Shown here piece after piece: positions 128 through 48,025 of a stretch of DNA of 51,630 nt. The first letter of the stretch is position 1. Every line of letters begins with the position of its first letter. The notes under the pieces were generated by a model. That model was not told the origin of the DNA and searched no databases. It saw only the letters and a program-made list of their open reading frames with translations. Position numbers and translations under genes: made by a program. The DNA is taken from positions 1 to 51,630 of the IMG/VR virus record IMGVR_UViG_3300046512_000015. One strand, 5' to 3'. Origin of the DNA: a virus.

Positions 128-361
128 TACATGCATCCAACTTGGAGCCATGTAGACAACGCAGTTCCAAATCTCCCTGAAGAGGCATTTCCAGCTCTTG
201 TAGAAGAAGCAAAGAGTACAGCATTCTTGGCTTTGAAACAAACAGCTAATCAGAAGGCAGAACAGAAAGCATCCAGACAACAACGCTGGCTATCACGAAA
301 AGCTTGGAGTGCCCACGGAGGCATTCGCTACGATGATTACGGCAGAAAGAGTAGAAAATGA
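1..361 (+). CDS. Tail tubular protein A-like adaptor, C-terminal part (gene starts at 51109)
   Basis: This is the 3' part of a gene cut by the linearisation point. The frame is open from base 2 and joins the gene starting at 51109 to give a protein of about 251 residues. Length, its place just before the tail-tube B-like gene and its place after the capsid genes fit the T7 gp11-type adaptor, which sits between portal and tail nozzle. The C-terminus is basic and rich in Gln and Ala (KQTANQKAEQKASRQQRW). An internal ATG at 131 is not the real start because the frame stays open upstream. The stop overlaps the next gene in an ATGA junction. The family call rests on context and length, not on a diagnostic motif. 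Confidence 0.8.
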   Translation, partial: LLIANNVPPTYWTSFDDQYIVTDAYDSEVEDTLQSTKTQCLAYMHPTWSHVDNAVPNLPEEAFPALVEEAKSTAFLALKQTANQKAEQKASRQQRWLSRKAWSAHGGIRYDDYGRKSRK

Positions 362-18880: not shown

Positions 18881-19253
18881 TCTTTTTTCTTTCTTTAGCG
18901 AGCTGCTTTTCAGAAGCAGTCTTAATCTTATGACACCCTACACATAAACATTGTAAGTTGTCCGCTTCACAGAACATATTGTTGATAACACTGTCCCATG
19001 ATGTGAAACCTTCTGTTGGATCAATGATAGCGCTGATGTGGTCTATTTGAACTTCCTTAGCAGGAAATACATCCAAACACTTATTACACTTGTAATGCTT
19101 GGCAAGTCTGCCTGTTTTAGCATTCGTAAGTTGTCCCACACATGCATCATTTAAACATTTATACTTAGGAGGCCATCGTCTACTTGCCGCCCTTAGAGCA
19201 CTCTTAACAAAACTGTTAAACCTGCTCTCGGTCCACTCTCCTCCATTTCTCAC
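18873..19253 (-). CDS. HNH endonuclease
   Basis: The 126-residue protein has paired zinc-binding Cys (CLNDACVG, then CNKCLDVFP) and the HNH core: EVQIDHISAII (His of the H motif), NLQCLCVGCHKIKTASE (Asn and last His). HNH enzymes of this layout are common as single genes within phage replication operons and may be free-standing homing or recombination nucleases. It overlaps its neighbours by 4 and 8 nt, so it is fully integrated in the operon rather than a recent insertion. Confidence 0.85.
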   Translation of the reverse strand: MRNGGEWTESRFNSFVKSALRAASRRWPPKYKCLNDACVGQLTNAKTGRLAKHYKCNKCLDVFPAKEVQIDHISAIIDPTEGFTSWDSVINNMFCEADNLQCLCVGCHKIKTASEKQLAKERKKNV

Positions 19254-24218: not shown

Positions 24219-25847
24219 TTAATTAATTTCATTAAATAGTCCTGTATTTTCATCCCAGAACATCTTGAATCTACCAATTTCACCAAACTCCCTATCCTCT
24301 AACAGAACAAGGGTTCTCATGTTTCTTTCTTCTCTGCTAAGAGCCGGGTCACGATTACCTTCAAGACCGAGCATGAGATTACAGCTACGAGCCATAGCCC
24401 GAGAACCAGCGAACTGAGAAGAAAGAACTTCACCTCCTCGTTCATGTGGGGGTCCACCATCTGGATTACGTAAGTGGCAAAAAATAAATATAACAACGTT
24501 GAGATCAAGTGCCATAGCAGAGAGCTCTTGAGCAATTTCTTGAAGTTTAACGTTAGCATCTGCTGCATTCATCCCGTTAGTTAGGTTGGTGATTGGGTCA
24601 ATCATGATAGCTTTGCATCCTTCTAGCGCAGCTTCCCTGATATCTGCCTTAAGTGTTTCCCATCCCAAATGCTGGTAGAGATTCACCATGTACAGCTTAT
24701 CCCGCATGATTTCACCTGCTCTTTCGTAAGCATCTTCATCAAATTCCTTACGAGGATCATGGAAGAACTTCCCCATTAACTTACCCGCAACAAGCTTATA
24801 AGTTTTCTTGTTAGATTCCTCTGGCTTCGCCATAAAAACCTTCCAATTAAACTCTTTCATGAAGTGGGCTGCTAACGTATTAACAATCTCACTCTTACCC
24901 TGCTTCTGTCCAGCACCTAGATAGATTGTCTCTCCTAATCGAATGCCTCGTGTAGCCTCTGTAACGTGCTTCCAAGGCCATGCAAAGCCATAGACAGGGG
25001 GTTGCTTGGCTGCTTCATGCAAATCGTTCCCAAGCACGATACGGCTGTTCTTGAGCTTCTTAGCATTAAACTGAATAGCGTTATAAGCGGCTTTGCTACG
25101 GCCAGTCATAAGACATTCATTAACATCCTTAGCAGGTAGATGAGCTACAACAGCATCAGGAACAATTTTAACAACGTCCTCAGCAGCTTTCTTCCCCGCT
25201 TCATCCATATCAAACACTAAAACAATTTCCTTGAAATGCTCTCGGATAAGCTTTAAATGTTTAGCAATAAATGCAGCAGCCCCACCAGCGCCATTGGGAA
25301 CAGAAACAACAGCAGGAGAAAAATCTGCGTACTGTGTCCCTTTGTTATGGTCTTTAAAGATTTGATACAACGATACAGCATCTAATTCTCCTTCAGTAAT
25401 GAAGAGTTTCTTAGCGCCAACACCGATTGCCTTGTCCCATCCAAAGAAGTCGATATCCTTCATACTACCAATCGACCACATACGCTTACCTTCAATTAGG
25501 CGAACCTTATAACAAACCAGCTCTCCGTCTTTGAGGTATGGATAGTAGTGGGTTTCGGGAGTTCTTCCATCTGTTTCAGATACTCCAATTTTAATCCCAA
25601 AATAGTTGAGGGATTCTTTACGGAGCTTTCTTTCAGGGAGATCATGAACTCCATATTCTTGGATTTCCTCAATCTCATTGTCAATCTGTTCCTTAGTTTT
25701 CTTAATAGCTACGGGTTTATATCCTGCTGGCTTGTCTTCATACGGATTAGGGATGTATTTACCTGTGGCAAAGTCATAACCGTCATACGTACCGTCATCC
25801 TTTAGGAATACCTGAATGCTACCAATTTTTTCAACACATTTTCCCAT
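24219..25847 (-). CDS. Primase-helicase (TOPRIM plus DnaB-like helicase), T7 gp4-like
   Basis: The 542-residue protein has a TOPRIM primase core at about residues 145-235 (KLFITEGELDAVSL with Glu152; VLVFDMDEAGKKA with DMD 213-215). A RecA-fold replicative helicase follows: Walker A is GAGQKQGKSE (311-320), Walker B is AIMIDPITNL, the H3 motif is IFCHLRNP and the H4 region is SSQFAGSRAMARSCNLML. The N-terminal four-Cys zinc ribbon used by T7 gp4A to read the priming site is absent: only Cys4 lies in the first 100 residues. It may thus resemble gp4B, or the zinc module may be elsewhere. A ribosome site AAGGAGATA precedes the ATG. Confidence 0.93.
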   Translation of the reverse strand: MGKCVEKIGSIQVFLKDDGTYDGYDFATGKYIPNPYEDKPAGYKPVAIKKTKEQIDNEIEEIQEYGVHDLPERKLRKESLNYFGIKIGVSETDGRTPETHYYPYLKDGELVCYKVRLIEGKRMWSIGSMKDIDFFGWDKAIGVGAKKLFITEGELDAVSLYQIFKDHNKGTQYADFSPAVVSVPNGAGGAAAFIAKHLKLIREHFKEIVLVFDMDEAGKKAAEDVVKIVPDAVVAHLPAKDVNECLMTGRSKAAYNAIQFNAKKLKNSRIVLGNDLHEAAKQPPVYGFAWPWKHVTEATRGIRLGETIYLGAGQKQGKSEIVNTLAAHFMKEFNWKVFMAKPEESNKKTYKLVAGKLMGKFFHDPRKEFDEDAYERAGEIMRDKLYMVNLYQHLGWETLKADIREAALEGCKAIMIDPITNLTNGMNAADANVKLQEIAQELSAMALDLNVVIFIFCHLRNPDGGPPHERGGEVLSSQFAGSRAMARSCNLMLGLEGNRDPALSREERNMRTLVLLEDREFGEIGRFKMFWDENTGLFNEIN

Positions 25848-27175: not shown

Positions 27176-28066
27176 TTAGAAGTCAACAATTGCACGATTG
27201 GCACGAGGACGTACAGCAGCAGGGGCTTTAGGGGCAATCCCTTTTACAGGAGCATCCTCTACCTTCTCTTTGTAAGCGTAAGGTAAATCAAGAGTGAGAG
27301 AGAAGCTGCGTTGAATCTCTTTCACCATTCGAGGATATTTGAAGGTTTGATATAAACCGCCCAACACTTGACGCATAAAACCATCAGCATCTAGTGCCTG
27401 ATATTCTTGAAGAATTTCTTTAGGACTTTTCTTCGTGATAGCATAAGCCTTCAGAGCATATAGGGCTTCAGTCCAATCCTTGATAACTTCCTTATCGATA
27501 TTTCCACGCATAGCACGGAATTCAATACTGCCGTATTTACGCAGAGAAGCAATATTTAAAGCCGAATATCGTACAGCATTAGGATCTTGAGCCATCAGAT
27601 ACTGAAGACCCCCATTAAATCCGGTTCGCAATACTTCTACAGTGTCTTCTGCATCAACAACACGAAGACAGAAACGATTGCCCTTACGCTCACGGCCACA
27701 GAAATTAACCAGTGGCTCCTCTAGTAAGAGGTATGCGTAAATCATGTTGAGCGTCTGTGCTTCCGTGAGATCTTGTACATTTACGTGTACATGAACACTA
27801 GTGCGGAAGCTGAAATCAAACGTAGCACCTTCCAACTCTTGAATCAAGCTGTCCAATGCGGGTTCAACTTCTTCACGGGTGATTGGTTTATTAATCACAA
27901 ATTCAGCAGATTTATCTGGATAGTGTCCACGCAGAGAACCGTCGTCCACAGTCTTCCAATACTTATTGTGGACTTCTCGCATGTTCTTGCCTTCTGCCTC
28001 AATTTCAATACCAAAGAGGCCCGGCACAGGCTTCTCAAGCCCGAGCAGTTGATGTACTTTTTTCAT
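27176..28066 (-). CDS. Amidoligase (COOH-NH2 ligase, glutamine synthetase-like fold)
   Basis: The 296-residue protein fits the 'putative amidoligase' family: GLFGIEIEAEGK (metal-binding Glu in E-x-E), WKTVDDGSLRG, SAEFVINKPI, a His cluster SVHVHVNVQD and the late GSIEFRAMRGN block. These acidic and His residues form the metal and ATP site of glutamine-synthetase-like ligases. It is predicted to make amide or peptide bonds using ammonia or an amine. A Pro/Ala-rich tail (GIAPKAPAAVRPRANRAIV) could bind a partner. Its first 32 nt overlap the previous gene. Confidence 0.87.
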   Translation of the reverse strand: MKKVHQLLGLEKPVPGLFGIEIEAEGKNMREVHNKYWKTVDDGSLRGHYPDKSAEFVINKPITREEVEPALDSLIQELEGATFDFSFRTSVHVHVNVQDLTEAQTLNMIYAYLLLEEPLVNFCGRERKGNRFCLRVVDAEDTVEVLRTGFNGGLQYLMAQDPNAVRYSALNIASLRKYGSIEFRAMRGNIDKEVIKDWTEALYALKAYAITKKSPKEILQEYQALDADGFMRQVLGGLYQTFKYPRMVKEIQRSFSLTLDLPYAYKEKVEDAPVKGIAPKAPAAVRPRANRAIVDF

Positions 28067-28664: not shown

Positions 28665-29454
28665 TTGGAATCTCCAAACCTTCTGCCTTAATGATTTTAT
28701 TGGCTTCTTTCAAATCACTGGTGTTAATGATAGCTTGGATGTCGCCATACTTGTCATCTAACGATTTACCAGCAATCAGTTGTTGCATACCTGCTTGAAC
28801 AGCACGGAACACCCATGCCATACGTTCTTTACTGGACAGCCATGCGTTAGACAGCGTACGATATTCTACGCCATATGGCTTGTATCGGCATGCACCAGCC
28901 TTACCATACATTTCACGACGCCGGATTTCCTTGTCATACGTAAGGCTAGGCAAGCCCAGATAGAAGTCCATCTGACGAGCCACAGCGTTGCAGCGGTCAA
29001 TATGCTCCTCGCTATCTACAACAGCACCATCAGTGAAGCCGATATGGACGTGACCAGAGGCAGTACGCATAGGTACATTACCATTAGGGCGTGGGTTAAT
29101 TGCATTAGCCCAAGCATTAAAGTCTGGATCACAGCCCAATTCCAATGCCTCTTTTGGCTGTGCTTTCAGATATTCCAGACTAAAATCAGCCACAGGGACA
29201 GCTACAACTTCATACGCAGGAACCATCTGCTTCAACTGGTCATACACCGATTGAATGTTAATGCAGAATTGATCTTCCGTTGCCGCAGGATCAATGTTAA
29301 ATTCCAGTGCCATACCGTCCACTTGTACAGCACCATTCTTAACGGGCTGTGGATTCTTTTTATCACCACGAATGAGGTTGTGGGCGGAAACAAACACACC
29401 ATGTTGCTTCACAAAACATTCAGGGTCAGCACCTACCAAAATCAATTGAGACAT
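28657..29454 (-). CDS. PhiEco32-like COOH-NH2 ligase (amidoligase type 2)
   Basis: This 265-residue protein matches the phage COOH-NH2 ligase family named after phiEco32. It opens LVGADPECFVKQHG (metal-binding Glu) and contains GMALEFNIDPAATEDQF, the His block ASGHVHIGFTDG and VEYRTLSNAWLSS near the C-terminus. It is a glutamine-synthetase-like ligase distinct from the amidoligase at 27176. It begins 14 nt after the class II amidotransferase gene. The reaction is probably amide formation on a carboxylate; the substrate is unknown. Confidence 0.88.
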   Translation of the reverse strand: MSQLILVGADPECFVKQHGVFVSAHNLIRGDKKNPQPVKNGAVQVDGMALEFNIDPAATEDQFCINIQSVYDQLKQMVPAYEVVAVPVADFSLEYLKAQPKEALELGCDPDFNAWANAINPRPNGNVPMRTASGHVHIGFTDGAVVDSEEHIDRCNAVARQMDFYLGLPSLTYDKEIRRREMYGKAGACRYKPYGVEYRTLSNAWLSSKERMAWVFRAVQAGMQQLIAGKSLDDKYGDIQAIINTSDLKEANKIIKAEGLEIPNA

Positions 29455-30814: not shown

Positions 30815-31504
30815 TTAAATCCCCTTTAAACGTTTAACAATAGCCTTCTTAACCTCTTCGGTTAGGATAGGGCCTGAGTTTGCTTCCAGTATTACAAATT
30901 CACCATCTTCATTTTCAAGGACATCAAAGCCTACGTAATCAACGCCAATAGCTTGTGCAGCTTGTTGGCATTCGTAATCAATAGCTTCAAATCCTGCTTT
31001 CTGCATCAGGATTAGGTCCCAACGTTCAGCTGTAGCCACTTTATGATAGCGGCCCACCACCTTACCCATGAACAAGACAATGCGGTATTCCCACTTGTGT
31101 TCAAAATACTCAGTGTATAGTTCTGCGTGAGGAAGAACATCTCCCTTATACGCATATTCCATACCTTTATTCATCGCTGCACAAGCATCCTTGCGACATA
31201 CGATTGTTTCCCAATACTTAGGAACTTCATTACGTGAGGTTTTAAAATCTGGATGAGACAAACCCTTACGCTTGAGAATGTTAAACGTCTGTATTTTATC
31301 AACACAACGTTCAACAGCAATAGCACTATTGATCATGTGCTTTGCTTGAAACTTATTACCACAGCCATAATTGAACACTAGGTCATACCGAGAGAAGCTA
31401 GTACGTCCTGTGTCGTATGGATTGATTGCGTCAGCACCTAAGGCAGCAGCAAGGGCTTTAGCCGATGTGCTACAGGCACCGGGGTAAATTACACAGATTT
31501 TCAT
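30815..31504 (-). CDS. ATP-grasp carboxylate-amine ligase 1
   Basis: The 229-residue protein starts MKICVIYPGACSTSAKALAA and contains a lysine-bearing ATP site (KGDVLPHAELYTEYFEHKW, EYRIVLFMGKVVGRYHK) and the metal-binding end GFDVLENEDGEFVILEANSG. The frame is open to 31546, but that part lies inside the tRNA-Arg gene; ATG 31504 with AGGAG eight bases upstream is the true start. It is a paralogue of 26412-27167. It starts the run ATP-grasp, amidotransferase, amidoligase, unknown, amidoligase, ATP-grasp. Confidence 0.87.
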   Translation of the reverse strand: MKICVIYPGACSTSAKALAAALGADAINPYDTGRTSFSRYDLVFNYGCGNKFQAKHMINSAIAVERCVDKIQTFNILKRKGLSHPDFKTSRNEVPKYWETIVCRKDACAAMNKGMEYAYKGDVLPHAELYTEYFEHKWEYRIVLFMGKVVGRYHKVATAERWDLILMQKAGFEAIDYECQQAAQAIGVDYVGFDVLENEDGEFVILEANSGPILTEEVKKAIVKRLKGI

Positions 31505-31594: not shown

Positions 31595-31599
31595 TTTGT

Positions 31600-32174: not shown

Positions 32175-32320
32175 TAAAACTCCAATACATTACCAAGAGC
32201 TACACCGAAAAGCAAACAAAGCAACAATGAAACCCAGTTTGGAATGTTCAATTGTTTGCAAATATCTGCAATTGCCCAACCAGAAAGGAAACAAGCAATA
32301 ATTTTAATTAGGATGTCCAT
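32174..32320 (-). CDS. Small membrane protein (48 aa)
   Basis: This 48-residue frame begins at ATG 32320 inside the previous stop (TAATG) and ends at 32174 inside the next start (TAATG). It has two hydrophobic segments (ILIKIIACFLSGWAIADI and WVSLLLCLLFGVALGNVL), probably a membrane hairpin. It was missed by length cut-offs. Coupling on both sides makes translation likely; the function is unknown. Confidence 0.65.
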   Translation of the reverse strand: MDILIKIIACFLSGWAIADICKQLNIPNWVSLLLCLLFGVALGNVLEF

Positions 32321-32685
32321 TATCGTGCCTTAAATTTAGCAATGTTGTCAGGATGATGCTTACGCTTCTTAGCTGGTTTGGTGTAGATGTACATACGGCA
32401 TTTATATTTACCGTGAATACTCCCACCTTCCACCACTTTAAACGTCTTAGGGTGGATGATAGCGTATTCCTTCCACACTTTCCAGCATTTGTCTTTCTCT
32501 GTAACAGAGAACACAATTACATCATTGTCCGTATCTTCTACGGCGTATTTGATGTACGCTTTGATAAGACCTTCTGTATTGATTTCATCAAAGACAGTGA
32601 AACGATGGGCAAAACATGGAAGGTGGGATTCACTGTCCCGAATACTCCATTTTCCATGTTCATATAAAATATCCTGTAATGACAT
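32320..32685 (-). CDS. Hypothetical protein (121 aa)
   Basis: This 121-residue soluble protein has a beta-rich middle (DVIVFSVTEKDKCWKVWKEY) and a very basic tail (KPAKKRKHHPDNIAKFKAR). It lies one base after the class I amidotransferase stop and overlaps the 48-aa membrane protein. It may be an adaptor between soluble enzymes and membrane partners, or nucleic-acid-binding through its tail. No family is recognised. Confidence 0.6.
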   Translation of the reverse strand: MSLQDILYEHGKWSIRDSESHLPCFAHRFTVFDEINTEGLIKAYIKYAVEDTDNDVIVFSVTEKDKCWKVWKEYAIIHPKTFKVVEGGSIHGKYKCRMYIYTKPAKKRKHHPDNIAKFKAR

Positions 32686-32686
32686 A

Positions 32687-33307
32687 TCACACTCCCAGAT
32701 ATTTAACCAGCAAGCCAGCGAAATAATTCTTCATGCCCTCATACTCAGGACGATCAAACTCTGGATGGGGCTGGAAGCACAGAGCCTTAGTTTTCTCATA
32801 GAAAACCACTTCAATGTCTTCCTTAGACACGTCTTTCTTAGCCACAGCACCATCAAACCACTCACGTGCACCACCAAGGGCTGCTGTAGCCACTACAAGG
32901 GCCTCAGGAGACGGCATAATCATCTGGTGGTGTGTACTACTCACATAGATGGTTTCACCGCTCAAAACGTCTGTAATCGAATGCGACTGGCAATGACGTT
33001 CAACGTTCTGGTACATACGACCACCTGAGAATACATTTAGGAATTGACCACCACGACAGATGCCCACCATTGGGACACCTGCCTCTTTGAATTGCTTGGC
33101 CAATTCCATTTCGTATTTGTCACGACGAGGATCATTACCGGTAGTCCAATGCTGTTCATCGCCATATAAGGAAGGCGTTACATCAGCACCACCAGTGAAT
33201 ACAGCCAGCTGTGCTTCTTCTACATTATTCGTGATAGCGAAGCCCAGCGCAGTGAACAGCTTACGATAGTCTGGACCACCGCCAATAATAATTACATTCT
33301 TGCTCAT
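32687..33307 (-). CDS. Class I glutamine amidotransferase-like hydrolase (peptidase C26 type)
   Basis: The 206-residue protein carries the catalytic triad of class I amidotransferases: nucleophile Cys84 in VGICRGGQ and His181/Glu183 in FQPHPEFD. The block FTGGADVTPSLYGDE is typical of the gamma-glutamyl hydrolase (C26) branch. It could release ammonia from glutamine or cleave a gamma-glutamyl bond made by the ligases of this module. It follows the 581-aa gene by 10 nt. A second amidotransferase of the unrelated class II type lies in the same operon. Confidence 0.9.
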   Translation of the reverse strand: MSKNVIIIGGGPDYRKLFTALGFAITNNVEEAQLAVFTGGADVTPSLYGDEQHWTTGNDPRRDKYEMELAKQFKEAGVPMVGICRGGQFLNVFSGGRMYQNVERHCQSHSITDVLSGETIYVSSTHHQMIMPSPEALVVATAALGGAREWFDGAVAKKDVSKEDIEVVFYEKTKALCFQPHPEFDRPEYEGMKNYFAGLLVKYLGV

Positions 33308-33317: not shown

Positions 33318-35063
33318 TTAGTTGATCAGTTTGTTCAGTTGTTCAGCGTAATCGTATACGGTTTCATTGGTGAGGACAGCTTTAGCATTAAATCCTTCAC
33401 CCACCTTTGTACTCTTCATGTTATTTGCAACATGCTCGAGCATTGTTTCTTGACCAGCATGGTGCTGTGCAACAGCATTGTGAATCTGGTAGCCGCTCAT
33501 GTGTTCATTAGCTGGCCCTTGTTTGGTGTCCTCATGGAAGCCTTGTTGGAAGAATTTAATGAAGGATTTGTAAGAAGCATCCCCTACCATACAAGTGTGA
33601 CCACCCTCCGCGAAGGACAGCTTAGTGAAGCTCTTTGCTTGCTCCACCCACTGTACAATATGGGCCATCAGGAATGCAGTGTTCTCCCCATAGCCTTGAT
33701 CTACAAAATGCACAAACGTAGCCGGCTTGTCTTTGTATTCAAAGCCAACACGAATGGCAATAGCCGCAGCGAGAATTTGACTAATGTTTTTAGTGAGATC
33801 GGCTTGCACGCCTTTCTCCAACTGAACATCGTATTCTTCCTTGATGAAGGCTTCGCTGAATGGGCTACGATACAGGACATATTCATTCCAGCGTTTCAAA
33901 TCTTCCTGTTTAACCCCACCATTGTTGTAATAATTTTTAATATACTTAGGACCATTACCAAGGGAGAATACGAAATAATCCAATGGGGTGTTGACGTAGC
34001 GAATTGGGGCGTAGCAAGCTGGAGACATTTCAATCTTGGGCTTTTGTTCCTTGCATTTCCAAGCGAAGCTACACACAGCATTAGAACCTGGACCAACCTT
34101 CTTACGTGCCTCTGCCAAATATTCCTCAACACTAGGCTCTGCTGGCTTAGGAGGAATTGCTTGGGCTTCTAAGGGAGCCTCCTCACAAGGCGTACCATCC
34201 TCAAATTTTAAGGAGCTAATAGGCCATACCCAAGAAGTGCCAACAAGCTTGGCATACGGGAAGCCAGTACGGTGAGTTTTAATATTTTCAATTACATGAA
34301 CATTGCCCTTTTGGACAATTTCATCCATATGGGCATTCCAGCCGAGCTTCGTTTCAACCTTCTTATAGGGAATTACTTTATCCCCCACTTTCAGAACACG
34401 CTTCTCTTGTTTCAAGCGTAGATTGTTACGGGGGATGTACATCCAATCATCGCCATCACATCCTTCCCACACCAGCCGGGCGAGATCAGAATATCGGTTA
34501 TAAGCAAGATCTTGGGGATTCAGATCTTTAATCTTTAACGTTTTAATACGTTCTGGATGATTTTTCAGAACACCAATCCAGCCCGTGTAAGAGCCTTGTT
34601 TAGAGGTCATGTCAATAACCTCCACCAGATCACCATCTTGCAGCTTACGTGCTTCTACAGGTGCTTTAGGCAGCTCCAGTGGAACAATCTCAAAGCGAGA
34701 CTTCTTAAAGGCCTTGCCCGGAATATCCTCAACGCAATAGGTGTTTGCGCCAATAGATTTGATTGTATAAACCGCATTCTTACGCAGCCCAGAGCCACGC
34801 AGAGGATCAACACATTTAATCTTTACGCCAACAGCTTCTGCTGGAATACGCATGATAGCTTGCGCTTTCTCTACAGCTTTAAAGCGATTGGCGAAGAACA
34901 ATTGTGCTAGATCTTTATCGTTTAAAACACGAACACCATTACCGCCTTCTACTGAAAGCACAATGTATTCTTTACCAACCGTAAGCTTGCCTTCAGCATC
35001 TTTACCAAATTGGTTAGGACCAGCGTTAACGCAGACAATCTTCTGACCTTTTTCAAAAGCCAT
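33318..35063 (-). CDS. Multidomain SH3-like barrel protein of the amidoligase module (581 aa)
   Basis: The first 300 residues read as about four small beta-barrels of KOW/SH3-like type, each with a 'G-x-x-Y/V-x-V' start: KGQKIVCVNAGPN with LTVGKEYIVLSV; VGVKIKCVDPLR; LQDGDLVEVIDM; LKVGDKVIPYKK. A Pro/Glu-rich linker (APLEAQAIPPKPAEPSVEEY) follows, then a 250-residue domain of unknown fold with many conserved-looking aromatics, His and Cys (HFVDQGYGENTAFLMAHIV). It is the first gene of the amidoligase operon. The barrels could recognise a peptide, RNA or the substrate to be modified. The function is unknown. Confidence 0.7.
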   Translation of the reverse strand: MAFEKGQKIVCVNAGPNQFGKDAEGKLTVGKEYIVLSVEGGNGVRVLNDKDLAQLFFANRFKAVEKAQAIMRIPAEAVGVKIKCVDPLRGSGLRKNAVYTIKSIGANTYCVEDIPGKAFKKSRFEIVPLELPKAPVEARKLQDGDLVEVIDMTSKQGSYTGWIGVLKNHPERIKTLKIKDLNPQDLAYNRYSDLARLVWEGCDGDDWMYIPRNNLRLKQEKRVLKVGDKVIPYKKVETKLGWNAHMDEIVQKGNVHVIENIKTHRTGFPYAKLVGTSWVWPISSLKFEDGTPCEEAPLEAQAIPPKPAEPSVEEYLAEARKKVGPGSNAVCSFAWKCKEQKPKIEMSPACYAPIRYVNTPLDYFVFSLGNGPKYIKNYYNNGGVKQEDLKRWNEYVLYRSPFSEAFIKEEYDVQLEKGVQADLTKNISQILAAAIAIRVGFEYKDKPATFVHFVDQGYGENTAFLMAHIVQWVEQAKSFTKLSFAEGGHTCMVGDASYKSFIKFFQQGFHEDTKQGPANEHMSGYQIHNAVAQHHAGQETMLEHVANNMKSTKVGEGFNAKAVLTNETVYDYAEQLNKLIN

Positions 35064-36037: not shown

Positions 36038-36058
36038 GAGGAGATGATAGCGCTCCTC
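36038..36058 (-). promoter_or_regulatory. Leader hairpin next to the ribosome site of the 52-aa gene
   Basis: In the leftward transcript GAGGAG pairs with CTCCTC around a 9-nt loop that contains GCTATCA, a motif repeated in the early region. The 3' arm ends two bases before the AAGGAG ribosome site, so the hairpin or its CTCCTC arm (anti-Shine-Dalgarno-like complement) could mask initiation. Confidence 0.5.
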
Positions 36059-36082
36059 AATTTAAATTATGCAATAGAAATA

Positions 36083-36105
36083 GGGAGCACAAGGCTCCCT
36101 TTTTT
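36083..36105 (+). terminator. Rho-independent hairpin oriented rightward, antisense to the early operon
   Basis: GGGAGC and GCTCCC form a 6-bp stem with a 5-nt loop followed by six T on the + strand. Genes here are on the - strand. Leftward, the hairpin is followed only by TATTTCTATT, so leftward termination would be weak. It may stop antisense transcripts or protect an mRNA end. Confidence 0.6.
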
Positions 36106-36397
36106 ATTCCTCTTCCACTTCAATCATTGTCCAGTCAAGACGAAAAGCGTGTCGACCAGGGACTTGTAAATAAGATTCATAATACTTAGTGGTGATTTCA
36201 GCGCCGAGATGGGCTGCACCACATGAGACAGCATAACGATACTTCTTCACCTTGGCTTTCGGCTTGATGCGGTAGGCTCCATCAGCACGCCAATTTGGCG
36301 TGTCTACGTCAAACCAGTCACCGCAATGGTAGTATTGAATCTTTGCCCCATTCGCCCAAGCGATGATGAGGTCAGCATGTTTATGACGAGTGTTCAT
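36104..36397 (-). CDS. Conserved phage hypothetical protein (97 aa)
   Basis: The 97-residue protein has the layout of a small domain widespread in phages: KHADLIIAWANGAKIQYYHC, then WFDVDTPNWRADGAYRIKPK. Here it is followed by a second beta-rich part (KKYRYAVSCGAAHLGAEIT). The family has no agreed function. Its ATG overlaps the upstream stop (ATGA), and its stop codon borders the hairpin at 36083. Confidence 0.7.
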   Translation of the reverse strand: MNTRHKHADLIIAWANGAKIQYYHCGDWFDVDTPNWRADGAYRIKPKAKVKKYRYAVSCGAAHLGAEITTKYYESYLQVPGRHAFRLDWTMIEVEEE

Positions 36398-36807
36398 TCT
36401 TTTGCTCCTTTGGGAGCGTGATAGCCCCAGTTAGGGATGTCTTCCCATTTGCCACGCATTTTATCCATCTCTTCTTCAGGGACATCATGAACAGATTTGA
36501 ATTCACCAGTGGCGTTAATGATTTCAATATCAAAACCCATGTTCATGTATGGTTTGATTTGCCACATGGCGATGAACGTATTAGCAACAACAACATTCTT
36601 CCCGTTGTGTAGCATAATCTCTGCCGTCATTTGGCACCACTCGTGTGCCTGTTTCAGCATGGCCTTGCTGTAATGGTATTTACCATTGAAGATGTGGCAC
36701 ATATCTGCTTCCAGATGAATGTCTGCCTTCCCTTCTTTAACCATATTAGCAGCGAGTGTGCTCTTACCACTGCCCGGCAAGCCACGAATAAGAAAAATCT
36801 TAGCCAT
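36394..36807 (-). CDS. P-loop kinase (polynucleotide kinase / AAA type)
   Basis: The 137-residue protein starts MAKIFLIRGLPGSGKSTLAA, a canonical Walker A (GLPGSGKST). It also has EADMCHIFNGKYHY and GKNVVVANTFIAMWQIKPY, which resemble the substrate-binding and Walker B parts of T4 polynucleotide kinase 5'-domain and Zeta-like kinases. In phages such short kinases repair RNA or tRNA ends or act on nucleotides. The neighbouring tRNA genes make an RNA-end role attractive, but no ligase or phosphatase domain is visible. Confidence 0.8.
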   Translation of the reverse strand: MAKIFLIRGLPGSGKSTLAANMVKEGKADIHLEADMCHIFNGKYHYSKAMLKQAHEWCQMTAEIMLHNGKNVVVANTFIAMWQIKPYMNMGFDIEIINATGEFKSVHDVPEEEMDKMRGKWEDIPNWGYHAPKGAKE

Positions 36808-36937
36808 TAAGCTGCTCCATAATGAACGTTATTACAGTTTGTTTGCAATCAGGATTGACACACGGTACAGAGGCGTAATGCTTCCCGTATGCTTTACGAT
36901 TGCACGATTTGCACCATCCATAATATGTGTAACGCAT
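36800..36937 (-). CDS. Small zinc-ribbon-like protein (45 aa)
   Basis: The frame from ATG 36937 (ribosome site AAGGA) to TAA 36800 encodes 45 residues with paired Cys, WCKSCNRKAYGKHY and CVNPDCKQ, as in a compact zinc ribbon. The end overlaps the kinase start (AATGGCTAA). It lies 13 nt after the CCA end of the tRNA-like RNA. It is likely real and nucleic-acid-binding; the role is unknown. Confidence 0.65.
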   Translation of the reverse strand: MRYTYYGWCKSCNRKAYGKHYASVPCVNPDCKQTVITFIMEQLNG

Positions 36938-36950
36938 GATTGTTCCTTGT

Positions 36951-37158
36951 TGGTAGGACAGACGGGACTCGAACCCGCAGTAAGCTTCCGTAGGTCATTA
37001 CTCCTACGTGTACACAGCCTTCAAACGCGCATCATAGAATGAGCACTGTTAAGAACCCACACACTGCACTTCAAAATATCAGCCTGCACTAATGCTATCG
37101 GTTGTTAGACCTTCACCCATTCCGTTTATGGGCCGCTCGCCTTTTCGCGTTCTGTCCT
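36951..37158 (-). ncRNA. 208-nt tRNA-like RNA with large internal extension
   Basis: The ends form a 7-bp acceptor stem (AGGACAG with CTGTCCT), a normal T arm (GCGGG, TTCGAGT, CCCGT), discriminator A and an encoded CCA. After the 5' arm there is a D-like loop (AAAAGG) and a 5-bp stem-loop CCCAT/ATGGG with loop AAACGGA, whose position 33 is A rather than T. About 120 nt without coding potential follow, including a perfect 6-bp hairpin (CGTAGG/CCTACG), before the T arm. It starts exactly 6 nt after the CCA of the previous element, the same spacing as the tRNA before it, which supports one processed tRNA array. It is not a recognisable tmRNA or group I intron. Confidence 0.6.
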
Positions 37159-37164
37159 GTTGAT

Positions 37165-37239
37165 TGGTGCCTTTGATTAGGACTTGAACCTAATATCTCC
37201 CGGAGCATTTACCGGAGTTTTACTTAAAACTACAAAGGC
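37165..37239 (-). tRNA. tRNA-like gene of uncertain identity
   Basis: The acceptor pairs GCCTTTG with CAAAGGC, discriminator A and CCA are encoded, and the T arm holds GGTTCAAGTCC. The D arm is short (GTTTT/AAAAC, 4-nt loop, no GG). The anticodon arm pairs TCCGG with CCGGG only around an 8-nt loop TAAATGCT, so no normal anticodon can be named. It lies 6 nt after tRNA-Leu. It may be a degenerate tRNA or a decoy/processing element. Confidence 0.6.
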
Positions 37240-37245
37240 ATTGAT

Positions 37246-37330
37246 TGGTGCCCCTAGCCGGAGTCGAACCGGCACGCACAAAGGCGGGGGATTTTAAGTC
37301 CCCTGTGTCTACCAATTCCACCATAGGGGC
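37246..37330 (-). tRNA. tRNA-Leu (TAA)
   Basis: A complete class II tRNA with acceptor GCCCCTA/TAGGGGC, anticodon arm GGGGA-CTTAAAA-TCCCC (anticodon TAA, reading UUA), a long variable arm (CGCCTTTGTGCG), T arm GCCGGTTCGACTCCGGC and encoded CCA. UUA is used often in the AT-rich phage genes. Confidence 0.95.
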
Positions 37331-37336
37331 TGTTTA

Positions 37337-37624
37337 TTAGGCCATTACTCCTTTAGCTTTCAGAGCTTGGTAGGTCTTGAAGCTCAGGTTTGCGGACCAG
37401 CCCTTCTGTTGCTCTGGAGTCAGCTTAGGCTCATGGCTTGCTTGACGGATGATGATAGCTCCCAAGCGGCTGAAGCGTACACCATCGGGGAAATCAGTGT
37501 TGAGGAATGCTTCACGCATTGCGTTGTTCGTGTTGCCCACTTGTGCCTTAGGAGCAGGCTTATGCAGCTTGCTGTTACGACGTTGGCCTTTGGAGGTGTA
37601 TTTTGCGCGTTTAGCTTGTGCCAT
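37337..37624 (-). CDS. Small basic hypothetical protein (95 aa)
   Basis: The 95-residue protein has a Lys/Arg-rich N-terminus (AKRAKYTSKGQRRNSKLHKP) and a C-terminal helical part (WSANLSFKTYQALKAKGVMA). The ribosome site AGGAGAATCA is the same as that of the next gene upstream. It lies just before the tRNA cluster. Nucleic-acid binding is plausible from charge; no family is recognised. Confidence 0.65.
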   Translation of the reverse strand: MAQAKRAKYTSKGQRRNSKLHKPAPKAQVGNTNNAMREAFLNTDFPDGVRFSRLGAIIIRQASHEPKLTPEQQKGWSANLSFKTYQALKAKGVMA

Positions 37625-37647
37625 GATGTGATTCTCCTAAATGAATA

Positions 37648-37687
37648 GTGTCCTATAGTGGACTGGTTAAGGGTAAAGCACCCACAC
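37648..37687 (-). promoter_or_regulatory. Structured leader of the 95-aa gene
   Basis: In the leftward transcript two hairpins can form, GGGT-GCTTT-ACCC and GTCC-ACTATA-GGAC, ending 16 nt before AGGAGAATCA. The arrangement resembles the better leader at 37962-38020. Pairing of the outer GTGT with ACAC would compete with the second hairpin, so the fold is less certain. Confidence 0.4.
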
Positions 37688-37719
37688 ATGCCCTGATTAA
37701 CAAGGCATGAATTGAAGCT

Positions 37720-37941
37720 TTAGAAGAACTTAGCCTTACCAACACGAGATTTCTTGGTGCGTACATCACGCAGTGGCATAACCAAAATAGCATTGTTGAT
37801 TTCCAACGCTGCCAGTTCCACTTTCAGTTCTTGATGGTTGTCACAACCTGCTTTCAGTGAGGCACGGATTTGTGGGATACGGCGTTCAGCAGCAGCACGT
37901 TGACGTTCTGCCTTGCGGCATGGGAAGTTTGCTGGTTTCAT
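37720..37941 (-). CDS. Small basic hypothetical protein (73 aa)
   Basis: This 73-residue protein is basic at both ends (MKPANFPCRKAERQRAAAER and RTKKSRVGKAKFF) with a central helix (NHQELKVELAALEINNAILV). Its ribosome site AGGAGAATCA lies 4 nt before the ATG, downstream of a strongly structured leader. It is likely an early host-takeover or nucleic-acid-binding protein, inferred from charge and position only. Confidence 0.65.
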   Translation of the reverse strand: MKPANFPCRKAERQRAAAERRIPQIRASLKAGCDNHQELKVELAALEINNAILVMPLRDVRTKKSRVGKAKFF

Positions 37942-37961
37942 TTGATTCTCCTGTATATACA

Positions 37962-38020
37962 GTGCTCTATTGTGAGCAGGTTACCCTTTCGGGGTTAGGA
38001 CAGAATGTCCAAGAGAGCAC
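37962..38020 (-). ncRNA. Three-way-junction leader RNA upstream of the 73-aa gene
   Basis: In the leftward transcript GTGCTCT (38020-38014) pairs with AGAGCAC (37968-37962), enclosing two hairpins: GGACA-TTC-TGTCC and ACCC-CGAAA-GGGT. A 12-bp palindrome CTGTATATACAG follows and overlaps the ribosome site. It could be a translational switch, a processing site or a protein-binding RNA. Confidence 0.6.
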
Positions 38021-38294
38021 ACATGTGTCAGAGAGTGCTCCCTTTGAAACTCTATCTTATAATCCTAACGGTATAGGGACTCTCCGATAGGCGTATGGGA
38101 TCGCCAAGTCATAATTAATTATCTCCTCGTCATTTGACGATAGTTTAGAATGATTTATTGCCGTATGTCTTTAATGTCGATAGTCTAAAAGGTTGGCCCT
38201 ATTATCGTTCGCCGGGGCACGGCCCATATTGTGGTTGCTGTTTCATTTCTTCACCATTCCTTGGCACATAGGCCCAATGTGCAACCTGATAAAA
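38021..38294. other. Non-coding stretch upstream of the structured leader
   Basis: No convincing gene. Small inverted repeats are visible, such as CGTCATTTGACG at about 38127-38138. A 14-codon frame beginning MKQQPQYGPCPGER with GAAG upstream is too short to claim. It probably forms the untranslated part of the early leftward transcript. Confidence 0.4.
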
Positions 38295-38435
38295 TTACAG
38301 TTCATGCCATGCGTGGTACATGATAGCGTGCTGAATGCGCCAGTCAATGACATTAATGTCCCGGTCTTGCAACATAGCAGCTAGCTCATTAATAGCAGCG
38401 TAATAATTCGTTATCTCTATCGATGACAACAGCAT
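38295..38435 (-). CDS. Small hypothetical protein (46 aa)
   Basis: A frame from ATG 38435, with AGGGGA six bases upstream, to TAA 38295 gives 46 residues: MLLSSIEITNYYAAINELAA, then DRDINVIDWRIQHAIMYHAW. The text is protein-like and helical and lies in the early leftward region. Similar tiny early proteins often inhibit host functions; that is inference only. Confidence 0.5.
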   Translation of the reverse strand: MLLSSIEITNYYAAINELAAMLQDRDINVIDWRIQHAIMYHAWHEL

Positions 38436-38663
38436 GACATTCCCCTAATGGATGGCCTTTACAGAATTGCACTGTCTACACATAGTTTTGATATCTTAGG
38501 TCGCACTAAATTACAAACAATCTTGTAATAGATTCTTTGGTCAATAGTCTTAGTCTCAATCAATTATATGTATGCCCCTACAGCTTAGGCCCGTGATGGT
38601 GAGGTCTTATGCACCTATATTAATGTATGTCACTATGGCATACGGCACCGCCTCGTTGATTGT
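38436..38663. other. Non-coding stretch between early genes
   Basis: I see no supported gene on either strand and no clear terminator. A 12-codon leftward frame with a Cys pair (MCRQCNSVKAIH) ends just before the ribosome site of the 46-aa gene but lacks its own. It is probably leader or spacer RNA. Confidence 0.35.
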
Positions 38664-39194
38664 TTAGGCTTGTTCTTTAGCCAGTTCATCCATCATGGCG
38701 ACAAGCGTTTCCACTTTGAGGCCAGCCTTGATGAATGCACGGACAACAGCCGCTTGCTCGATGTTGGCCTCTTCTGCCTGTTTCAGCAAGCCCTTGAACT
38801 TGGCTTCCATTACATCGACGGTGATGGGTTTCTTCTCAACATCTACGTTGCGCTCGGCCCACGTCCAGATGTTATTGAGGGGATCTTCGAGGAACGCAAT
38901 TGCTTTTTCTTGCGCCTCGTCGTAATTCTTTTTGTTCTTCTTAGTGAACGTCAGTTCGTCCACATCGTAGTTGAATCCGCTGAATTCCTTGAAATACAGG
39001 ACAGCGATTTTCTTGTTCATTGGCGACAGGACACCAACCAGACGATTGACATAGCCGATGTCTTGGGTGGCGTGATGGGCTTCCAGAACAGAGCGTGATA
39101 GCTCTTGCAGGGTGGCTTTGGTGATTTTCTCTGCTTTCAACAGAGCGTTGATTGCCTTGTTAAACAAGGCGTCAAAGACAGTTTTATCAAACAT
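38664..39194 (-). CDS. Conserved early phage protein (176 aa)
   Basis: This 176-residue protein (FDKTVFDALFNKAINALLKA, then LQELSRSVLEAHHATQDIGY and FLEDPLNNIWTWAERNVDVE) is of a type seen as an uncharacterised early protein in several lytic phages. It is helical and acidic. The leader contains a 6-bp hairpin (39218-39235) and a 5-bp hairpin ending at the AGGAG ribosome site. It is the first sizeable gene transcribed leftward from the control region, so it is likely an early host-interaction protein. Confidence 0.75.
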   Translation of the reverse strand: MFDKTVFDALFNKAINALLKAEKITKATLQELSRSVLEAHHATQDIGYVNRLVGVLSPMNKKIAVLYFKEFSGFNYDVDELTFTKKNKKNYDEAQEKAIAFLEDPLNNIWTWAERNVDVEKKPITVDVMEAKFKGLLKQAEEANIEQAAVVRAFIKAGLKVETLVAMMDELAKEQA

Positions 39195-39217
39195 GGCAAA
39201 CTCCTAATGTAATTAGC

Positions 39218-39235
39218 GTTGCTGACATTAGCAAC
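39218..39235 (-). promoter_or_regulatory. Leader hairpin of the first early gene
   Basis: GTTGCT and AGCAAC form a perfect 6-bp stem with a 6-nt loop in the leftward transcript, followed by a second hairpin CTAAT-TAC-ATTAG that abuts the ribosome site. Together they could control initiation of the 176-aa gene. Confidence 0.45.
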
Positions 39236-39446
39236 ACAATACATACTCTAGGAATACATATTGGGTTGCCCTATCCCTAAGCATCATTCACTTACAAGAC
39301 ACTAATAAACGTGATAGCGCTAGGACGTTGAGAATACAGAGACTTATATTGGTAGTCCAATATATGCATGTATAAACAGGGCATCCATCTCACTACGACA
39401 TTCCTCATGTGGTAAGCATGTGTTAATGCGCGGGATAGAACATTAG

Positions 39447-39460
39447 ATTGTTAAAGAATA
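39447..39460 (-). promoter_or_regulatory. boxA-like antitermination site 3
   Basis: Leftward sequence TATTCTTTAACAAT, matching the core TTCTTTAACA of ribosomal boxA. A 6-bp hairpin GCACAC/GTGTGC (39483-39501) lies 22 nt upstream, in boxB position. It would recruit NusB/NusE to RNA polymerase. Confidence 0.65.
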
Positions 39461-39534
39461 TAGAATAGCAATTGTAATTAGGGCACACAATTGTAGTGTG
39501 CATTCCTCGCCCATTCATCGGTGCGTATCCAGAC

Positions 39535-39562
39535 ATTTTACTGTCCGGTCTATCTGTCTCAA
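39535..39562 (-). promoter_or_regulatory. Leftward sigma-70 promoter candidate
   Basis: -35 TTGAGA (39562-39557), 16-bp spacer, -10 TAAAAT (39540-39535): five of six matches in each box. It lies about 75 nt before boxA-like site 3. Confidence 0.6.
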
Positions 39563-39686
39563 CTCTTGGTTGTGTTATGTATGGAGGCAACGCCTAGACT
39601 ACTAGACATTACGCGACACATACACAGTGACGCCAAGTATATGAGACAGCCACACGTCATGTACTGACGATTAGCTGCTATTCTAA

Positions 39687-39700
39687 ATTGTTAAAGAACA
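39687..39700 (-). promoter_or_regulatory. boxA-like antitermination site 2
   Basis: Leftward sequence TGTTCTTTAACAAT, one base different from the E. coli rrn boxA TGCTCTTTAACA. A hairpin GGGC-TTAG-GCCC (39706-39717) ends 5 nt upstream, the boxB-boxA order of rRNA leaders. Confidence 0.7.
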
Positions 39701-39847
39701 GTTTCGGGCCTAAGCCCTCCACCTGTTGGCATATGCTTGTCGTTGTGACTAGCGCCTTGTTACGTGTGTTACATACAACCTGATTCTACGTTCTACCAGC
39801 GTTGCCCTTGGGCTATTGCTGCCTACTTGCCTGAATCAGTGATGCTA

Positions 39848-39875
39848 TTGTTACACACTCTCTAATGTCTGTCAA
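39848..39875 (-). promoter_or_regulatory. Leftward promoter candidate with consensus -35
   Basis: -35 TTGACA is perfect (39875-39870). With a 16-bp spacer the -10 is TAACAA, preceded by TGTG, which gives an extended -10 character. BoxA-like site 2 follows about 150 nt downstream. Confidence 0.5.
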
Positions 39876-40037
39876 ACTCTTTTTAAGTCACGTAGCAATC
39901 GTGATAGCTCTATGTATCGCTTGTCTGTCTGGTTACAAACTAAGCATGTCCTACTATACGCACAAGGCAATAGGTCAGTGGCTTAGGGTTCAACATCTCA
40001 TGATACGGCCTGAATTTACAACTAAAGAGAATGACAG

Positions 40038-40051
40038 ATTGTTAAAGAGCA
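40038..40051 (-). promoter_or_regulatory. boxA-like antitermination site 1 (exact rrn boxA)
   Basis: Leftward sequence TGCTCTTTAACAAT contains the E. coli rrn boxA TGCTCTTTAACA exactly. A 12-bp palindrome AGCCCTAGGGCT (40062-40073) lies 10 nt upstream as a boxB-like hairpin. Confidence 0.75.
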
Positions 40052-40214
40052 ACTACATACCAGCCCTAGGGCTAGCCTTCGGTACAGCGTTATGTGTATC
40101 GAAGAGACCCCATTATTATCCATTGCCGATGATAGCGCAAGTATTATTTTACTGTTCGTTTATACAGCTGTATTAGGATTGCCTATAAGAAATAGCGCGT
40201 GCGCACATGCACGC

Positions 40215-40243: not shown

Positions 40244-40271
40244 CAACATTCAATCAATGTGTTGTATTTAG

Positions 40272-40293
40272 TTATCCACATAGGTTATCCACA
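40272..40293 (+). other. Tandem DnaA boxes, candidate replication origin
   Basis: Two exact consensus DnaA boxes TTATCCACA (40272-40280 and 40285-40293) lie 13 bp apart. A third site in reverse orientation, TGTGGATGA (40400-40408), has one mismatch. They border the AT-rich palindromes at 40422-40514. The grouping resembles a DnaA-dependent origin. Confidence 0.6.
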
Positions 40294-40421
40294 TGTGGTT
40301 TAAACGCATTCTAAGGCCCCTAGGGGAAGCGCAAGGGCGAGGATGGGGCATGTATCGGAAAATAGATCGACCTCACCACGGGCCTATAAAGGGCATTGCT
40401 GTGGATGAACATAATGACAAT

Positions 40422-40514
40422 GTCTTATATAAGACCTGCCTATTTATTCATCAAGTCTTATATAAGACCTAGTGTGAGTCTTATATAAGAGTATGTAGCA
40501 GTCTTATATATGAG
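40422..40514. repeat. Four copies of the 14-bp palindrome GTCTTATATAAGAC
   Basis: Copies at 40422-40435 (14/14), 40455-40468 (14/14), 40478-40491 (13/14) and 40501-40514 (12/14). Starts are spaced 33, 23 and 23 bp. Perfect dyad symmetry and near two-turn spacing indicate a dimeric DNA-binding protein, or an origin iteron array. Confidence 0.75.
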
Positions 40515-40775
40515 TGGCATAATGACAATAAATATGCAACGTGCCTAGCGGCACAAGAATAATGAATACGCCCAATAGGAATAAGGGGGAGTGTATGTCA
40601 AGCATATTCTGGGGCAATGAATAATGTGTTGTATGTGTGTTGCACCCCTTTCATTTTGTCACTAGATGTGTTAGATATCCTTCGTTGAAAGCTGAACATT
40701 ACATAAATGAAACACTTTCTCCACAGATAGGCAAGCTTGCTAGGGGGTAGCAGGGGTTTCACTTTGAGTGCATAT

Positions 40776-46258: not shown

Positions 46259-48025
46259 ATGGCTAAGAAGCCCTTAGAAACTCGTGCCATCTTTGGCGGT
46301 GATGATGTTTCCAAATATATTGGAATGACTTGGTTCAATTTCAATAGTCAACGACAAACTAAATTAGATCAATGGCGTGAACTACGTAATTATATTTTTG
46401 CTACTGATACTACAACTACAACTAATAGTTCTCTTCCTTGGAAGAATAGCACTACACTCCCTAAACTTTGTCAGATTCGTGACAATCTTCATTCCAATTA
46501 TATTAGTGCATTGTTCCCTAATGATGATTGGCTGAAATGGGAAGGCTATTCGATGGAAGACTCTATTAAAGAGAAAGTGAAGACAATTGAAGCCTACATG
46601 TCTAACAAAACTCGTGAGGGTCATTTTAGAACAGAATGCAGTAAACTCCTCTATGATTATATTGATTATGGTAATTGCTTTGCTACAGTAGATTATGAAT
46701 CTTCGTACATTAAGGATGCTGCTGGTAATCGAGTAATTGATTTCATCGGCCCCCGTCTACGCAGAATCAGTCCTTTAGACATCATCTTCAATCCAATCTC
46801 TAACACATTTAAAGATTCCTTTAAAATCATTCGCTCCCTTAAAACTATTGGTGAATTGCGAATTATGGCAGAGGATGAACCAGACAATGCCTATCTCAAA
46901 ACGGCTTTACTAAATAGGGATAAAATGTGTGCTCACATGAATTCCTATGGACTAGAGGAATTCGAGAAGCAAGAAGGTATTCTTATGGATGGATTCGGTA
47001 ATTACTCCGAATACCTTCAAAGCGGATATGTGGAACTGTTGGAATTCTGGGGTGACATGCACGATCAGAAAACAGGTACAGTTAAGCGTGGACGAGTAAT
47101 CACTGTAATTGATCGTATGTACATGATTCGGGATGAAGCCATTCCTAGCTGGTCTGGAAGCGCTCCAATCTTCCATGCAGGGTGGCGTACCCGTCCAGAC
47201 AATCTGTGGGCTATGGGCCCTCTAGACAATCTGGTAGGCATGCAATATCGTATTGACCATCTGGAGAATTTGAAAGCAGACGCTATGGACTTAGCTGTTC
47301 TTCCTCCTTTGAAGATTAAAGGAGAGGTAGAGGAATTTAGATACGGTCCGGGTGTTGAGATTCACATTGATGAGAATGGTGACGTAGAAGAATTGGGACA
47401 CAACGTACAGTGGGTGATTCAAAGTGACAACGCTATCACACTTCTGGAACAGCGCATGGAGATGTATGCTGGTGCTCCTCGTGAAGCTATGGGTATTCGT
47501 ACTCCGGGTGAGAAAACTGCATTTGAAGTTCAACAACTAGACAATGCAGCAGGTCGTATCTTCCAAGAGAAAATCAATACGTTTGAGATTGAGATGTTGG
47601 AGAAGGCCCTTAACGCCATGCTAGAGACTGCTAAACGCAATCTAGACGCTTCTGATGTTATCCGTGTTATGGACAATGACATTGGTGTTCAACAGTTCGT
47701 ACGCATCACTAAAGAAGATATTACCGCTTCTGGTAAACTTCGTCCTATTGGTGCTAGACATTTTGCTGCACAAGCAACTCTAATGCAGAATCTGAATGGT
47801 ATCTGGCAGACGCAGATTGGTCAAATGATCTCTCCGCATACAAGTACAATCCAATTGGCTAAATTAGTAGAAGACGTATTAGGGCTGTCCCGCTATAGCT
47901 TGTTTGCGCCTAACGTAGCAGTTGCAGAACAACAACAAACAATGCGGCTGTCAAATCAAGCTCAAGAGGATTTACAGGTTGAGCAATCCGTTAATCCTAA
48001 CAACCCACAACAAGGACAAGCATAA
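46259..48025 (+). CDS. Portal (head-tail connector) protein
   Basis: This 588-residue protein follows TerL, as portals do. T7-like portal features are DNLHSNYISALFPNDDWLKW, the phosphate-contact-type middle (DNLVGMQYRIDHLENLKADA) and GAPREAMGIRTPGEKTAFEV. The C-terminal 40 residues are Gln/Asn-rich (VAVAEQQQTMRLSNQ) and probably reach into the capsid. The next gene overlaps as TAATG. Confidence 0.92.
   Translation: MAKKPLETRAIFGGDDVSKYIGMTWFNFNSQRQTKLDQWRELRNYIFATDTTTTTNSSLPWKNSTTLPKLCQIRDNLHSNYISALFPNDDWLKWEGYSMEDSIKEKVKTIEAYMSNKTREGHFRTECSKLLYDYIDYGNCFATVDYESSYIKDAAGNRVIDFIGPRLRRISPLDIIFNPISNTFKDSFKIIRSLKTIGELRIMAEDEPDNAYLKTALLNRDKMCAHMNSYGLEEFEKQEGILMDGFGNYSEYLQSGYVELLEFWGDMHDQKTGTVKRGRVITVIDRMYMIRDEAIPSWSGSAPIFHAGWRTRPDNLWAMGPLDNLVGMQYRIDHLENLKADAMDLAVLPPLKIKGEVEEFRYGPGVEIHIDENGDVEELGHNVQWVIQSDNAITLLEQRMEMYAGAPREAMGIRTPGEKTAFEVQQLDNAAGRIFQEKINTFEIEMLEKALNAMLETAKRNLDASDVIRVMDNDIGVQQFVRITKEDITASGKLRPIGARHFAAQATLMQNLNGIWQTQIGQMISPHTSTIQLAKLVEDVLGLSRYSLFAPNVAVAEQQQTMRLSNQAQEDLQVEQSVNPNNPQQGQA

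Follow-up and report, generated by a model that had tools for sequence, protein, structure and literature searches.

What purpose could be served by a short word that recurs along a viral genome, inside genes and between them, and almost always in one direction relative to transcription? The question is raised by the heptamer TGATAGC in the window (the whole stretch of DNA that was analysed, 51,630 bases of IMG/VR virus record IMGVR_UViG_3300046512_000015), which comes from a T7-like podophage of the Zobellviridae type as judged by its terminase, portal, polymerase and replication genes. An exact count gave 18 copies on the + strand and 3 on the − strand. The leftward-transcribed early arm (14.5-40.9 kb) contained 17 of the 18 and none in the other orientation. 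A sequence-only reading of this DNA had reported at least 15 + strand copies at 14.7-40.2 kb, eight of them in 36.0-40.2 kb, and had placed them both within and between genes. We counted 17 there, 13 in genes and 4 in non-coding DNA; the figure of eight agreed, and all eleven quoted positions were exact. The observation was real and understated; a pyrimidine at position 8, a rising spacing and a GG variant had been missed. The best explanation of the results below is that the word, in the general form GSTATCAY, would be a distributed one-way cis-acting element of the early transcription unit, which may lie in any gene or frame and has a lineage-specific base at position 2.

The three copies on the opposite strand (289, 4075 and 47432) were all within the rightward-transcribed late arm, and for this reason 20 of the 21 copies in the window read GCUAUCA in the sense of transcription. 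The single antisense copy (TGATAGC at 7581) was also in the late arm. The opposite orientation had been described as near chance; its three copies are themselves sense. Because the base following GCTATCA was C or T in 21 of 21 copies, the true word is one base longer, GCTATCAY. An extended consensus of the non-coding copies was about MGSTATCAYSRTTT, or about 13 bp with the lineage-specific base.

With an order-2 Markov model, 3.65 copies of TGATAGC were expected per strand in the whole window and 2.7 in the leftward arm, which makes the earlier estimate of 1-2 per arm right in order and slightly low. GCTATCAY was seen 17 times in the early arm of the window and expected 1.1 times by an order-2 model. 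The reading frames of the copies were mixed: frame 0 (Ala-Ile-Ile/Met/Thr) was the commonest, and frames 1 and 2 and non-coding positions also occurred. The prevalence of frame 0 is what an artefact of codon or dipeptide usage would give, with Ala-Ile written GCT ATC. A codon-preserving shuffle, which the sequence-only reading had proposed, was run by exchanging codons among synonymous positions inside genes, and the bias survived it. The early-arm genes of the window had 13 sense copies, where 200 shuffles averaged 2.8 and never exceeded 8, and the non-coding DNA of the same arm (5.2 kb) had 4 further copies. In the pooled genes of 14 early arms, GCTATCAY was observed 103 times against 28 in the shuffles. 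Alternative spellings of the same peptides lacked comparable enrichment, enrichment was strong outside coding DNA, and the spacing described below is even and graded. Codon or dipeptide usage as a full explanation is refuted by the shuffles, and such an artefact is hardly credible. The scarcity of antisense copies within genes is mostly expected from coding, because TGATAGC includes two stop codons (the shuffles gave 0.15 on average), and antisense avoidance was not kept as a separate signal. The near-cognate word GCTATCAR was depleted in the genes of motif-rich genomes (3 vs 20 expected in late genes, 6 vs 13 expected in early genes) and showed no clear depletion in motif-less relatives.

For the comparison with relatives, early and late arms were assigned by gene direction in 26 genomes including the window, and four cultured phages were added later. 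The arm limits were set by hand. Permutation or truncation affects several of the records, and that of VR7901, to give one case, begins elsewhere than at the physical end. GCTATCAY ranked first among 32,190 words for over-representation when the early arms of 15 genomes were pooled, with 159 sense and 7 antisense copies where an order-3 model expected 19.2 (z=31.5), and words that did not overlap it reached a z of 9.7 at most. The word was sense in both divergent arms, in the window and in relative G001. Among cultured phages it occurred in Erwinia phage Pecta, Citrobacter phage CVT22 and Klebsiella phages Klyazma and KpnP_VR7901. The comparison with close relatives that had been suggested as a check left the sense bias standing across many of them. 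The earlier picture of an early transcript with repeated GCUAUCA, dense near the promoters, is supported in the same way: the repetition exceeds codon usage and is common to many relatives.

The octamer is GCTATCAC/T in the main group and GGTATCAC/T in some lineages. GGTATCAY replaced GCTATCAY in G012, G004 and PQ867843 (sense:antisense 10:1, 5:0 and 6:0), and the early arms of these three genomes contained zero GCTATCAY. G004 is the weakest of the three, because one of its five copies is also GG in GC-type relatives. On the polymerase tree three GC/GG changes are needed, and well-supported branches force at least two. Early-arm scans found neither array in PA11, three Vibrio phages, PQ867851, G007 and G009, and no substitute word above control scans in the motif-less relatives. 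Similar scans of phiEco32, T7, LUZ24 and VpV262 showed no GCTATCAY array of this kind. LUZ24 (NC_010325, 1-25500, + strand) had 11 sense and 0 antisense copies of another word, ACKATGAC, with 0.8 expected in an uncontrolled single scan; this unrelated Pseudomonas podophage may have an array of the same sort. About 10% of the GSTATCAY sites were at equivalent codons in relatives and most were not. Where the DNA of relatives still aligns, 19 of 25 sites were kept vs about 9 expected from other 8-mers (one direction per pair).

The arrangement of the copies was analysed in the 21 genomes with a motif, with the start of the early arm as the zero of distance. The first 500 nucleotides held no copy in any of the 21, where about 11 were expected, and the following 2 kb held 45. 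The first copies lay some 0.5–1 kb inside the genome end and did not come before the promoter region; a TTGACA-type promoter-like match was scored upstream of the first copy in 16 of 21 genomes. The window was not among the 16, but a weaker TTGACA match stands ahead of its first copy (Table 1). Copy density dropped from about 0.9 to 0.13 per kb, with a best fit of distance^-0.8, and gene density was flat along the same arms. After power-law rescaling, the gaps were evener than random in 19 of 21 genomes (p<0.05), and a log-distance test gave the same picture. Fisher's combined p was about 4e-25 without correction for relatedness and overstates the evenness, because the genomes are related; for the window alone p was 0.0002. 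Individual sites turned over between genomes and the overall pattern persisted. Flexible position with preserved spacing is the signature of a distributed signal and not of gene-by-gene regulation. These sequence comparisons show the array to be selected, one-way, graded and even, and to start at or just past the promoter region of the early unit. We lean slightly towards the view that it represents a previously undescribed genome-scale polar element, in which a short word recurs along a viral early operon at even intervals that grow geometrically and its spelling shifts lineage-wise with a putative reader acting on elongating RNA polymerase or on entering DNA.

Zobellviridae lack an RNA polymerase gene (PMC9960094) and need to keep the host enzyme running along an early unit of ~25 kb. 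The leader of this unit in the window (39.2-40.3 kb) contained three boxA sequences near-identical to that of E. coli rrnB. They are CTTTAACAA copies, and E. coli rrnB boxA has GCTCTTTAACAAT in common with them. Most of the Zobellviridae early leaders examined had one to four rrn-type boxA (CTCTTTAACAAT), often about 240-250 nucleotides apart. BoxA and the Nus factors have a role in rrn operons (PMC4807359), and since most leaders in the family have a boxA that matches E. coli rrnB, Nus-type elongation control is plausible there. We infer that a sequence-specific factor of host or phage origin would read GSTATCAY while host RNA polymerase transcribes the early unit, either as GSUAUCAY in the nascent RNA or on the non-template strand while this is exposed. 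The rrn-type boxA leader would start an elongation-competent, termination-resistant state, which this factor would renew, and each copy would serve the stretch downstream of it. Copies would be needed closest together near the start and more sparsely further on, perhaps because the factor accumulates as the first polymerases advance. Such renewal is favoured on four grounds: the copies start where transcription does, run in its direction in either arm, are indifferent to frame and gene, and have a leader in common with rrn-type boxA. That the array is a polar element read in the elongation complex, which keeps the polymerase processive along the early unit, is in our judgement a serious possibility that falls somewhat short of an even chance.

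Several results weigh against this account. The direction of transcription is also the direction that leads away from the genome end and from a possible origin near the early promoter, and the three are confounded. BoxA also occurs in the leaders of relatives with or without the octamer, and because motif-less relatives have it the two need not be linked. Late-arm enrichment was only about twofold (33 GCTATCAY in late genes against 15 after shuffling), and may not be specific, because late genes of motif-less relatives also showed 14 vs 6. The explanation given for the growing spacing is a conjecture. The predicted unpairedness of 149 sites equalled that of matched controls (0.412 v 0.411). 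These results do not separate RNA from DNA as the form that is read: accessibility was neutral, and transcription runs the same way as a reading from the genome end would. Finally, among the conserved phage proteins that were aligned, no residue convincingly followed the GC/GG switch, and no reader was found.

The search for a reader covered proteins and RNA. The sequence-only reading had proposed the phage sigma factor or the primase as binder, and neither was borne out: 0 of 152 columns of the sigma factor, and no residue of the primase-helicase, followed the switch in spelling. A promoter of the phage sigma factor was rejected as the identity of the word, as 148 aligned sites had no -35-like block and base preferences faded within a few bases. 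The late-gene start of the window had no copy, which counts against placement before operons. None of the phage gene families matched the presence and absence of the motif. The best candidate in this respect was a 95-aa protein with a basic N-terminus (window 37337-37624, − strand), found in 11 of 15 GC-type relatives, one GG-type and no motif-less relative; it was rejected as reader on account of its absence from the cultured citroviruses. With no tracking residue and no matching gene family, what is left is a reader encoded by the host, or a phage protein that changes fast. Pairing with host rRNA was also rejected, since neither of the 8-nucleotide complements, RTGATAGC or RTGATACC, occurs in the E. 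coli rrnB transcript.

The hairpin at 36038 that had been described with a copy in its loop does exist, and placement in loops as a general rule does not hold. A general hairpin-loop or single-stranded context was rejected with the equality of accessibility to controls. This equality also bears on a site of RNA processing or decay, at which a sequence-specific ribonuclease would cut early mRNA at GCUAUCAY. There is precedent in RegB, which cuts GGAG in T4 early messages, and copies that are sense in early RNA, stand in any frame and are densest in the most promoter-proximal genes would suit such a site. Distal genes would mostly escape, however, no ribonuclease candidate was found, the sites had no accessibility preference and the spacing is left unexplained. 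We give this reading little probability.

If the double-stranded octamer rather than the transcript is read, it may be a DNA polarity signal resembling the FtsK-orienting polar sequences (KOPS) or architecture imparting sequences (AIMS), from which a translocase, DNA-entry, segregation or packaging machine would read direction from the early end. The form fits the definition of AIMS (PMC5993296) in being a strand-biased degenerate octamer with graded abundance along the replicon and replaceable copies in any gene. Positions run from one genome end: Klyazma has terminal repeats (PMC9960094), and the cultured citroviruses show the pattern when distances are taken from the record end. In contrast to AIMS/KOPS, this array belongs to a virulent phage of ~50 kb and is tied to the early transcription arm, at whose start it is densest; its spacing is even and rises, and no FtsK-type reader is known for it. 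Its outermost 500 nucleotides are empty where an end-reading machine would most need copies, and the late end is without a comparable array. The AIMS gradient relates to the chromosome replication terminus, which seems to have no counterpart here, and no terminase or primase-helicase residue follows the C/G switch. A polarity signal is possible and, on balance, doubtful.

A brake like the stoperators of Cluster A mycobacteriophages (L5, Bxb1) would place a phage DNA-binding protein on asymmetric sites and stop early transcription at a later stage. Stoperators are numerous asymmetric sites that mostly share one orientation relative to transcription and vary slightly between relatives along with the repressor (PMC6550527). 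They are about 13 bp long. The extended consensus of about 13 bp, its lineage-specific base and the one orientation relative to transcription are similar. However, no repressor or lysogeny gene was recognised: the window ORFs (open reading frames) examined included no repressor or integrase, small ORFs of no assigned function aside, and the cultured members are described as lytic. The conserved 176-aa product of the first early gene had an AlphaFold model of fair confidence (pLDDT 85, pTM 0.64), which gave no significant match in the PDB, to a DNA-binding fold or otherwise, and among viral proteins matched only uncharacterised phage proteins. Half or more of the sites are inside genes in any frame, and the even, growing spacing is not predicted by a brake, which we hold to be unlikely.

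Beside the early promoter of the window (about 40270-40520) we observed repeats of TCTTATATAAGAC and two TGTGGATAA, which resemble DnaA boxes and make this region a candidate replication origin. Early transcription and a fork leaving there would run in the same direction, so the word could be a replication or repair signal on the lagging-strand template (a site where primase starts, or one like Chi), met by forks or nucleases that come from the early end. The late arm, also replicated, is weakly enriched; no primase residue follows the GC/GG switch; and density falling with distance is not expected of Okazaki starts. The word, GCTATCAY / RTGATAGC in phages of Klebsiella, Citrobacter and Erwinia, differs from E. 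coli Chi GCTGGTGG although the cultured hosts are Enterobacterales, and Chi of these hosts was rejected. The chance of a signal of this kind is slender.

In form, GSTATCAY is nearest to AIMS/KOPS and to stoperators; full membership would call for the gradient and reader of the first or the repressor of the second, for which no match was obtained. The rrn boxA and lambda nut systems are similar in their long host-polymerase unit and in an early-leader boxA nearly identical to that of E. coli rrn, but they use one or a few leader sites and no graded array, and GSTATCAY resembles neither boxA nor boxB. The direct repeats of the T1-like phage TLS (ATAGCAC...TAAAA) are also orientated with transcription and were likened to stoperators by their authors (PMC11447400); unlike the present word, they are upstream of start codons between genes, have a longer consensus and belong to a different family. 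No paper on the word or on such an array was found in the open-access literature. A conserved, evenly graded one-way word would, if true, be a new kind of distributed cis element, and may lead to a new elongation or DNA-handling factor. The array is directly testable in phages of Klebsiella, Citrobacter and Erwinia, and the switch between GC and GG, at least twice by the tree, provides a natural experiment on specificity.

Table 1. Octamer copies, leader elements and genes, in window coordinates unless a phage is named; G numbers denote relatives.
Feature	Position	Strand	Remark
TTGACA-17-TTATTC promoter-like site	40246-40218	−	about 80-90 nt upstream of first copy; unscored by promoter scan
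GCTATCAT	40129..40136	−	first element of leftward unit, non-coding leader
rrn-type boxA copy 1 (GCTCTTTAACAA)	40039..40050	−	identical to E. coli rrnB GCTCTTTAACAA
GCTATCAC	39901..39908	−	leader, non-coding
Sigma70-like promoter TTGACA-17-AACAAT	39847..39875	−	inside leader; consensus match only
rrn-type boxA copy 2 (TTCTTTAACAA)	39688..39698	−	leader
rrn-type boxA copy 3 (TTCTTTAACAA)	39448..39458	−	leader
GCTATCAC	39311..39318	−	leader, non-coding
First large early gene, 176 aa	38664..39194	−	conserved across family, without known domain
GCTATCAC	39095..39102	−	first early gene, frame 2 (CTA TCA)
GCTATCAT	38320..38327	−	46-codon ORF / non-coding stretch
GCTATCAT	37452..37459	−	95-aa ORF, frame 0; same place a site in G001, G003
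GCTATCAC	36418..36425	−	kinase-like gene, frame 1
GCTATCAT	36044..36051	−	hairpin loop shortly before gene start
GCTATCAT	34852..34859	−	581-aa gene, frame 0
GCTATCAC	33231..33238	−	glutamine amidotransferase gene, frame 0
GCTATCAT	32456..32463	−	frame 0
GCTATCAT	31043..31050	−	ATP-grasp-like gene, frame 1
GCTATCAT	28727..28734	−	COOH-NH2 ligase gene; same codon a site in five relatives
GCTATCAC	27435..27442	−	amidoligase gene
GCTATCAT	24604..24611	−	primase-helicase gene; same codon a site in G003, G008, G013
Sigma factor, single ORF	23390-23854		
GCTATCAT	19024..19031	−	HNH gene; same codon a site in G001, G014, G015
GCTATCAT	14787..14794	−	ribonucleotide reductase gene; last early-arm copy
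GCTATCAC	289..296	+	rightward late arm, sense
GCTATCAC	4075..4082	+	late arm, sense
GCTATCAC	47432..47439	+	late arm, sense
Sole antisense copy	7580..7587	−	late arm
Split sigma ORFs, VPMCC5 (L151)	20722-21287		
Split sigma ORFs, V468E53 (L175)	28081-28640		

Two further features of these genomes were observed. A cluster of ATP-grasp, amidoligase, COOH-NH2 ligase and glutamine amidotransferase-like genes occupied 26412-33307 (− strand) of the window and was present in most motif-bearing relatives; we read it as a peptide-bond-forming pathway. In two Vibrio members the phage sigma factor was annotated as two adjacent ORFs, one for region 2 and one for the rest.

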